From NCBI GenBank assembly GCA_944329445.1, contig CALVIH010000009.1, positions 1 through 36,886 of the forward strand: a stretch of DNA of 36,886 nucleotides. The letters run 5' to 3'. The DNA comes from an uncultured Bacilli bacterium (GTDB lineage: Bacteria; Bacillota_I; Bacilli_A; RF39; UBA660). The position numbers and the translations under genes were made by a program. Position 1 is the first letter of the stretch. Each line of letters begins with the position of its first letter. The notes beneath the pieces were generated by a model, which made no database searches, had not been told where the DNA came from, and worked only from the letters and a program-made list of their open reading frames with translations. This document shows, piece by piece, positions 2,725 through 4,684 of this stretch.

Positions 2725-3612
2725 TTATTTTATTTTCTCTGAATTAACAAATACATATCCGTCATCTAATTCTTCAAATTCAAGTTCGTAATTTTCCATA
2801 TTATTACCATAATCACTTATTAAATCTTTACTGTATAATCCATAGAGATTAGGATTTTCATCATCTTCATAAGTTATTTTATAATTATTAATAATGGTTC
2901 CATCATTTAATTTTAAGGTAATAAATTCATTAGTATCCATTTCTTCACTATAATCAAAATGATTAAAAGCAATAGTTATGTACACTTTATTTCCAGTTTT
3001 GTAAGCTTTATAAATACCCGCTACAAAAGTATTAATATCTCCATTGCCTTGTCTTAAAATAGTATAAACCTTTTTATCATTAGAATAGTCATATTTTGTA
3101 TCAAACCAAGAAAGATCATTCATTGAATGTTTTGTTGCATTACCAGTTTTAAATAATTTATTATAAACCAAATTAACATCATTATAATCATATACTCCAT
3201 CACAATAATAATCATTTATATTACTTTCATCATAAGTATCTTCACATGAATATTTATCCGTTTTATTGGTATTTCTTATGGCAGATAAAGTTTTATAAAA
3301 ATCTTTATTAAAAATATTTGTATCACCATTATAATAGCCTAAATAGTGCATATCAGCTTTATATTGGTCTGTAAATATACTTTTAACAATATCCTCTGCT
3401 TCCATCAAGTCAAGATCTTCTTTATCTTCCTCTTTTACTTTATTTATATTGTCATTTTCTTTTTCTTCTTTAATATTTTGATCATTTCCAATTACATATC
3501 CTATGTATAATCCTGCTGCTACAATTATTAATATTCCTATTAATCTTAACATTCCTCTTATTATTTTTGTTTTCTTACTTGGTCTTCCTACCTCGTTTTT
3601 TATTACTCCCAT
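2725..3612 (-). CDS. Single-pass membrane protein with a large extracellular domain, function unknown
   Basis: I do not recognise this 295-residue protein. Residues 1-19 are cytoplasmic and basic, with a VGRPSKKTK patch. One transmembrane segment follows at about 20-45, then an acidic lysine-rich linker (EKENDNINKVKEEDKED). The exterior domain is rich in Tyr, Asp and Asn; it has one close Cys pair (KYSCEDTYDE...YYCDGVYDY) that could form a disulfide. A good ribosome site (AGGAG) precedes the ATG. It has its own promoter and terminator, so it is a single-gene unit between fmt and frr. Its promoter contains a G10 tract between the -35 and -10 boxes, which suggests on/off switching of a surface antigen or adhesin-like protein. 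Confidence 0.85.
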   Translation of the reverse strand: MGVIKNEVGRPSKKTKIIRGMLRLIGILIIVAAGLYIGYVIGNDQNIKEEKENDNINKVKEEDKEDLDLMEAEDIVKSIFTDQYKADMHYLGYYNGDTNIFNKDFYKTLSAIRNTNKTDKYSCEDTYDESNINDYYCDGVYDYNDVNLVYNKLFKTGNATKHSMNDLSWFDTKYDYSNDKKVYTILRQGNGDINTFVAGIYKAYKTGNKVYITIAFNHFDYSEEMDTNEFITLKLNDGTIINNYKITYEDDENPNLYGLYSKDLISDYGNNMENYELEFEELDDGYVFVNSEKIK

Positions 3613-3650
3613 CTTCTTACTCCTTTTCTATCTTATTACATGTTTATAAT

Positions 3651-3677
3651 ATCATATACCCCCCCCCCACTTGTCAA
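3651..3677 (-). promoter_or_regulatory. Promoter with a G10 homopolymer in the -35/-10 spacer
   Basis: Minus strand: TTGACA (3677-3672), spacer AGT-G10-TA (15 nt), TATGAT (3656-3651). An alternative extended -10, TGATATTAT, ends at 3646 with a 20-nt spacer. Neither spacing is the ideal 17 nt. Two more Gs would give 17 for TATGAT; three fewer would give 17 for TATTAT. It lies about 40-65 nt upstream of the start of the 2725-3612 gene. Confidence 0.75.
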
Positions 3678-3737
3678 TTAAATTATGCTGTTGATAATTT
3701 TTCTTCTTTATATTTAGACATATTTTTTTAAATTCCA

Positions 3738-3778
3738 CTAAAAAAAGATTATTTAAAAAGTTTATTTAAATAATCTTC
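3738..3778 (-). terminator. Terminator of fmt
   Basis: Minus strand: AAGATTATTTA, a loop, TAAATAATCTT, then T7. It overlaps the end of fmt. Confidence 0.85.
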
Positions 3779-4684
3779 TCTTTTATTTCCGTTTACAAAA
3801 TCTTTAATACTCATTTTCTTTTTACCAGGTAGTTGTAACTCTGTTATTAAAATACTTCCATCCTTTGTTACTACTTCCATCCCTTCTTTACTTAAATTAA
3901 CTATGGTACCAGGTGTTTTATCATAGACTTTACCATTAATTTTACACATCCATAATTTAACGTTTTTATCATCTAAAATGGCGTAAGCACCAGGCCAAGA
4001 ATTAAGTCCTCTTATTTTGTTAAATATCTCTTTTGAAGTACTATTAAAGTCTACGTGTTCTTCTTCCCTAGATACGTTATACGCATAAGTAGCTTCATCA
4101 TTATTTTGCTTTTCTCTTTTATTAGTACCCGCAATTATACTTGGTAAAGTATCCATAAGAAGCGGAACCGCAACCTTTTGTAGTTTGTTATGAAGCGTTT
4201 CGGTAGTATCATTATCTTCAATTACCACTTCTACCTTCGATATCATATCACCTGTATCCATTCCTTTATCCATGTACATAATGGTTATCCCCGTCTTATC
4301 GTATCCATAAATAATTGCTTTATGAATTGGTGCTCCTCCCCTTAACTTTGGTAGAAGCGATGCATGAACGTTTATACAACCATATTTTGGAGCATTTAAT
4401 ATTACTTCTGGTATTATTTGACCATAAGCACAAGTTATTATAATATCTGGTTTTAAATCAAGTATTTCTTGATATTCATTTCTTATTTTTATTGGCTGAA
4501 TAACTTTTATATTATTGTTTAACGCAACTTTTTTAATTGGAGAATATACAATTTCTTTTTTTCTTCCAACTTCTTTATCCGGCTTAGTTACTACCGCTAT
4601 TACGTCGCATTCTTTAATCAAACTTTCTAATATCGGAACACAAAATTCTGGTGTTCCCATAAAAATAACTTTTAAATTTTTCAC
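3749..4684 (-). CDS. fmt: Methionyl-tRNA formyltransferase
   Basis: Fmt formylates Met-tRNAfMet using 10-formyl-tetrahydrofolate, giving the initiator used with peptide deformylase (def is in this window at 31370). The 311 residues show the formyltransferase fold, starting VIFMGTPEFCVPIL. Catalytic Asn105 and His107 sit in INVHASLLPKLRGGAPI, and Asp143 in MDKGMDTGDM. The C-terminal OB-like domain binds tRNA. The start is GTG at 4684, with AGGAGG 7 nt upstream. It follows rseP by about 30 bp and probably shares its transcript. Confidence 0.98.
   Translation of the reverse strand: MKNLKVIFMGTPEFCVPILESLIKECDVIAVVTKPDKEVGRKKEIVYSPIKKVALNNNIKVIQPIKIRNEYQEILDLKPDIIITCAYGQIIPEVILNAPKYGCINVHASLLPKLRGGAPIHKAIIYGYDKTGITIMYMDKGMDTGDMISKVEVVIEDNDTTETLHNKLQKVAVPLLMDTLPSIIAGTNKREKQNNDEATYAYNVSREEEHVDFNSTSKEIFNKIRGLNSWPGAYAILDDKNVKLWMCKINGKVYDKTPGTIVNLSKEGMEVVTKDGSILITELQLPGKKKMSIKDFVNGNKREDYLNKLFK

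Follow-up and report, generated by a model that had tools for sequence, protein, structure and literature searches.

Phase variation by simple sequence repeats is known mainly from pathogens. Among DnaA-regulated bacterial promoters, in which a DnaA box precedes a sigma-70 promoter, we know of none that is joined to a phase-variable tract. In Neisseria, the single porA locus has a poly-G tract between its -35 and -10 elements, and in Bordetella the fim promoters are activated by BvgA. The Bordetella fim2, fim3 and fimX promoters align a fim box, a C-stretch and a -10 element, and the length of the stretch alters transcription (PMC1891110). In the Mycoplasma hyorhinis vlp system, all genes of a surface-protein family have a poly-A homopolymer in their promoter regions, and each gene forms its own transcript (PMC10502178).

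Here we analyse a poly-G promoter in a stretch of 36,886 nucleotides from an uncultured Bacilli bacterium, hereafter the window. It resembles porA in having poly-G between the -35 and -10, but is one of many such promoters spread over the genomes of Gram-positive gut bacteria. As in Bordetella fim, a C/G tract stands in line between a box for a binding protein and a -10, whereas the box here is a replication initiator site and is accompanied by a good TTGAC. The likeness to vlp is a homopolymer in the promoters of surface-protein genes, each gene presumably forming its own transcript; unlike vlp, the genus of the window uses poly-G, at about 10-30 loci and before several unrelated families, with a DnaA-type box and with sigma factors among the targets. 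It shares with DnaA-regulated promoters the combination of a sigma-70 promoter and an upstream DnaA box, and differs from them in that the box is joined to a candidate phase-variable tract. The candidate poly-G switch promoter is of a known kind, and the proposed coupling to DnaA is the novel part. In the open-licence literature, we found no paper on DnaA boxes in phase-variable promoters or on phase variation in RF39/Aphodocola, and the available parts of PMC10634449, PMC11868660 and PMC2831843 contain nothing of the poly-G/DnaA-box kind.

Architecture of the promoter in the window

All elements of the promoter lie on the minus strand, in the order TTATCAACA, 11 nt, TTGACA-AGT-G10-TATATGA-TATTAT-AAACATG, then AGAAAAGGAG and a 295-aa gene (2725..3612). 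The -35-like hexamer TTGACA (3672..3677) is followed by AGT (3669..3671), the mark of what we call below a type B promoter (TTGACAnnnGn), by the G10 tract (3659..3668, C10 on the plus strand) and by TA (3657..3658). The first-pass annotation had joined the hexamer over these 15 nt to a TATGAT (3651..3656) and called ten consecutive Gs striking in otherwise AT-rich DNA. We can confirm this on the minus strand: G10 is the sole run of at least six G or C in the window, whose G+C content is 29.7%, and an independent-base model expects about 0.0004 runs of at least ten. TATGAT overlaps an extended -10, TGA-TATTAT (3646..3654, with TATTAT at 3646..3651), which is conserved in the genus and places TATTAT 20 nt from TTGACA. 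Behind it come AAACAT (3640..3645), containing an AACA element conserved in 81 of the 86 sites with TGnTATTAT, and the ribosome-binding site AGAAAAGGAG (3620..3629).

Further upstream, 11 nt before TTGACA, TTATCAACA (3689..3697) is a DnaA-box-like element that agrees with TTWTNCACA in 8 of 9 positions and lies where sister promoters have their TTTTCCACA box. The end of fmt is marked by an AT-rich hairpin with a T-run (3740..3782, minus strand), an inverted repeat with a fold of -11.3 kcal/mol and a z of -2.68 that is a likely terminator, although it is absent from a consensus terminator scan, which needs G-C pairs. The hairpin likely separates the 295-aa gene from the upstream operon, and the gene therefore probably depends on the poly-G promoter. 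The first-pass annotation had mentioned neither the DnaA box nor the sister promoters nor this hairpin.

The genes flanking the 295-aa gene are, as we read them from the sequence, fmt and frr, and a homologue beside frr is also found in genomes G016 (89% protein identity), G001 and G007. Homologues are present in 10 of the 18 genus genomes. The protein has a basic N-terminus, MGVIKNEVGRPSKKTK, and its first 40 residues, including the one transmembrane helix, are nearly invariant among homologues; the ectodomain is strongly divergent, so that whole-protein identity is 27-49% with the closest homologue excepted. The earlier description of a homopolymer-spacer promoter before a single-pass protein with a large exterior domain is supported. 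The protein has no match in Pfam or NCBIfam, and its structure model (pLDDT 74) matches nothing in the PDB at E 0.001 or better. A VGRPSKKT motif N-terminal to the helix is common to this protein and the poly-G-driven membrane proteins L014 and L074; the GRP within it is presumably AT-hook-like.

A module repeated across the genus

The promoter in the window is one copy of a multi-locus, multi-species module, neither a product of chance nor an isolated curiosity. The conserved form is TTTTCCACA, 14 (or 11) nt, TTGAC, G8-11 and TATnTGA-TATTAT. In the window genome (G000; 1.17 Mb, 59 contigs), all seven tracts of at least 9 G are preceded by TTGAC, as are four of the five tracts of exactly 8 G, where about 0.3% would be expected by chance from the density of TTGAC. 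Across the 18 genus genomes, TTGAC lies upstream of 105 of the 112 tracts of at least 8 G; 93 of these overlap full-pattern sites and 12 more have TTGAC in their flanks, and the remaining seven consist of one cut at a contig end but with a -10 (G012:C39) and six elsewhere. Five of the 18 genomes have no tract of this length. The pattern TTGAC-G7+-TATTAT is found at 98 sites in 13 of the 18 genomes, 33 of them in G012, with no match in the same genomes for the reversed-pattern control. This search selects for the pattern, as in part do the site sets behind the spacer, pair and box statistics below; the tests unselected for it are that of all G tracts of at least 8 and the TTTTCCACA-TTGAC search.

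Beyond the genus, the full pattern occurs in 19 of 193 sampled family genomes (control 0), and in a phylum-wide sample TTGACN0-4-G8 was found in 6 of 19 family genomes vs 8 of 373 others (control 5 of 392); many single matches in unrelated phyla are near chance level by our own estimate and were left out. Candidatus Aphodocola excrementigallinarum (Bacilli incertae sedis) is among the named relatives that match. A phage origin of the module was rejected, with only three IMG/VR contigs matching.

Some further loci deserve mention. In G407, of a different family in the same class, TTGAC is followed by G15 to G21, far longer than in the genus of the window, and there is no clear DnaA box at these loci (L217-L219). 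The named genome of Faecalibacterium sp. An122 has four near-identical TTGACACC-G8-TATGGTATTAT promoters (L081, L114, L128, L159), on which the tract model could perhaps be studied at the bench. Several contigs break in or right beside poly-G promoters (G000:C10:1-34, G000:C37:1-19, L072, L141). Such breaks could stem from repeats or mixed tract lengths and could be used to find further members.

Spacer classes and the -10 element

Among the 99 genus sites with enough downstream sequence, TGnTATTAT is present in 86 and TGnTATAAT in 4, vs 46 with TATGAT. The true -10 is for this reason very likely TATTAT with an extended TGn, that is the conserved TGATATTAT, and the hexamer that the first-pass annotation had offered as the alternative is likely the real one, in place of its TATGAT.

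The sites fall into two types. In type A (80 sites), TTGACn directly precedes the tract, and 67 of the sites have a spacer of 16-17 nt. In type B (20 sites, including the window), TTGACAnnn precedes the tract, TTGACA being shifted by 3 nt relative to type A, and the spacer has its mode at 19 nt and measures 18-20 nt in 16 of 20. The 20-nt spacer of the window is hence normal for its class, and the earlier proposal that G10 is a low-expression state is unproven. In type A, tract length is compensated by the non-tract part of the spacer (rho -0.41, p 0.00016) and the variance of the total spacer is below that of permuted data (p 0.00025), p values that are optimistic because the promoter sites are related by descent; the same caution applies to type B, where the compensation is not significant (rho -0.32, p 0.17).

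A DnaA box upstream of the tract

A perfect TTWTNCACA lies upstream of the tract in 73 of the 99 genus sites, and an 8/9 match, as in the window, in 17 more. The words TTTTCCACA and TTATCCACA cluster in the dnaA regions of all six genomes examined, each of which has one match to Bac_DnaA_C, the DnaA C-domain. Judged by these words, TTTTCCACA is the DnaA box of the genus's own origins.

The association also holds when sites are not selected for G. A search for TTTTCCACA-N5-18-TTGAC returned 87 genus matches vs 8 for the reversed pattern, and genomes without tracts have none or one such pair. Among the 79 matches with a -10, at least 7 G are present in 68 and the tract is interrupted or short in 11. 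The 87 matches were classed in part by script (43) and in part by eye (44, of which 31 in G012 and 13 in G017); 43 of those classed by eye have at least 7 G and one (G012:C7) is without a -10. The box stands at a fixed distance upstream, with a box-to--10 mode of 36 and mean of 35.8 in type A and a mean of 34.5 in type B; the corresponding TTGAC-to--10 means are 16.1 vs 18.9. Outside the genus, we found the box in G052 (as TTATnAACA), G186 and G093, and no convincing box at the poly-G promoters of G113, CAMNSE, An122 and CAOJOK.

Tract length differs between related copies

As in phase-variable promoters, the homopolymer lies between the -35 and the -10. The first-pass annotation had proposed to compare tract lengths in related genomes, and at the locus of the window they do differ: the tract is G10 in the window genome, G8 followed by A in G016, and broken in G002; G001 holds a G9 copy and an AGT-interrupted copy of equal total length, and the homologues in G003, G007 and G012 have no tract. 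More widely, among 63 pairs whose flanks are at least 90% identical, the length differs in 20 and is the same in 43. The tract thus changes faster than its flanks between copies and between species, and 43 of the 63 similar pairs do not differ.

Two copies in G012 are identical over 49 nt before the tract and 116 nt after it, 165 nt in all, but one has G10 and the other G9. In the window genome, copies with G10 and G11 stand behind 32 identical upstream nt, the G11 copy being at a contig end; some of the best near-identical pairs are contig ends (L072/L141), where misassembly is possible. Three copies in a tandem array of G113, from another genus, carry G9, G11 and G10, and orthologous sigma genes have G8 (14-nt spacer) in G000 vs G10 (16 nt) in G011. 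The tracts of G012 are uniform, being exactly G9 in 27 of 31 sites though the flanks differ by several percent. This uniformity and the 43 equal-length pairs would fit a length kept constant no less than a switch.

Loss of mismatch repair as a cause was rejected: MutS is present in 17 of the 18 genus genomes, and there is therefore no sign of hypermutation.

Genes under poly-G promoters

The products of the controlled genes are mostly transmembrane, signal-anchor or lipoprotein-like, that is secreted or anchored, as would be expected of surface contingency targets; accessory sigma factors and small cytosolic-looking proteins are the exceptions. Genes for SipW/TasA-like secreted proteins stand in tandem arrays in G012, G008 and G017, and almost every one of them has a poly-G promoter to itself, in a listing that includes some genes twice through alternative starts. 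In one of them (L179; G012:C27:1-10500), genes about 0.8 kb apart mostly have their own poly-G promoter. Two genes of this array have neither tract nor box and show instead TTGACC-N17 with a non-G spacer, followed by a TATTAT or TATCAT -10. The array genes do not attain the curated score for TasA/camelysin fibre subunits: Peptidase_M73 matches 2 of 24 (best E 0.017) and a SipW-type signal 3 of 24 (best E 0.03, below the cut-off); in the PDB, AbpX is matched at E 0.0021. We take the likeness to TasA only as a lead. Further targets include a pilin-like protein (PF07963, barely above the cut-off), a protein with Big_2 and Listeria-Bacteroides repeats, and lipoprotein-like products.

Accessory sigma-70 genes lie directly behind poly-G promoters at L234:3360-5585 (minus), L235:3078-4922 (minus), L236:3421-5487 (plus) and L241:11497-15288 (minus). 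They encode giant factors of 615-1264 aa, one of which has TPR repeats and additional copies of region 4, and large sigma factors are scattered across the genus. As dedicated readers of the poly-G promoters these were rejected because sigma genes of more than 450 aa are absent from G012, G014, G016 and G006, all of which have such promoters. Two small proteins behind poly-G promoters (L082:2472-2717 and L009:5124-5375, both minus), which we take to be YukD/EsaB-looking, perhaps mark a secretion locus; the L082 protein has no family match.

Discussion

We consider it probable that the site in the window belongs to a genus-wide module of slipped-strand phase-variable promoters with a DnaA layer. 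In each promoter, a TTGAC -35 and an extended -10, TGnTATTAT, enclose a spacer that is mostly a pure G8-G11 tract, and a DnaA box lies upstream. When a G is gained or lost, the distances of the -35 and of the box from the -10 would change, and promoter strength would therefore change reversibly and independently at each locus, with the strong state of type A presumably near 16-17 nt. Where the box occurs, bound DnaA is probably a second layer that ties the genes to the replication or cell-cycle state, and the few accessory sigma factors among the targets could relay the switch. The sequences themselves establish the module, its repetition, the compensation within the spacer, the unequal tracts of near-identical copies and the identity of the box with the origin boxes; that tracts slip in living populations, that expression changes with them and that DnaA binds the box we infer. 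The spacer compensation and the unequal copies speak for slipped-strand switching. Points that weigh against it are the lack of significant compensation in type B, to which the window belongs, the imperfect box of the window, the presence of MutS, and the missing tracts in five genus genomes and in three homologues of the window gene. A slipped-strand switch was the reading favoured from the window alone, and the multi-locus, multi-species module strengthens it; the observation is more important than first stated, and the mechanism is likely.

In a rival reading, the tract mainly sets the distance from an activator, DnaA bound at the box, to the -10, with TTGAC less important, as in Bordetella fim, where an activator region, a C-stretch and the -10 distance are described (PMC1891110). 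The two promoter types differ more in their TTGAC-to--10 means than in their box-to--10 means, and without G012 the box-to--10 distance has the smaller variance (2.16 vs 2.88), but when all 90 sites are included the variances are nearly the same (2.04 vs 2.10), and several poly-G genera lack a convincing box; we regard such a switch as a realistic possibility that we lean against. It is unlikely, in our judgement, that the tract is a structural spacer or protein-binding element of DnaA- or sigma-dependent promoters, held at fixed length by selection and never switching. Such a regulon would agree with the uniform G9 tracts of G012, with the joint gain and loss of box, TTGAC and tract, and with the conserved total spacer length. 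Pure G is however not needed for spacing, because the two array genes and 11 of the 79 box promoters do without a pure tract, and near-identical copies have unequal tract lengths.

That the promoter is invertible, or a recombination site at which the shared sequence serves for crossover as in Mycoplasma vsp/vpma, would account for conserved promoters and 5' gene ends beside differing ectodomains and for contigs that break inside the promoter; yet an inverted-repeat search found no pair closely bracketing the promoter in the window, and almost all of the genes examined have a promoter to themselves, which makes this very improbable. A sequencing or assembly artefact of the two-colour poly-G kind could explain one G16 run at a contig end (G008:C2), but dozens of internal sites, found in independent assemblies that different projects produced, have conserved sequence on both sides of the tract, by which it is refuted for internal sites and, overall, hardly worth considering.

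Returning to the slipped-strand module, we tentatively propose, at somewhat short of even odds, a genome-wide phasome whose promoters carry a DnaA box in most copies, in which random tract switching and replication state would jointly set the surface proteins, some of them via phase-variable sigma factors. The module looks like an undescribed genome-wide switch for cell-surface change. In small-genome uncultured gut Bacilli, as many as about 30 promoters in one genome appear to serve phase variation, and the switchable genes could be listed from metagenomes by promoter sequence alone. The DnaA box within the module makes it possible to ask whether variation of the surface is gated by the state of replication. 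If the proposed phasome exists, it would be the first case known in which DnaA is coupled to a phase-variable regulon, and strain profiles of such gut bacteria should be read as mixtures of switch states.
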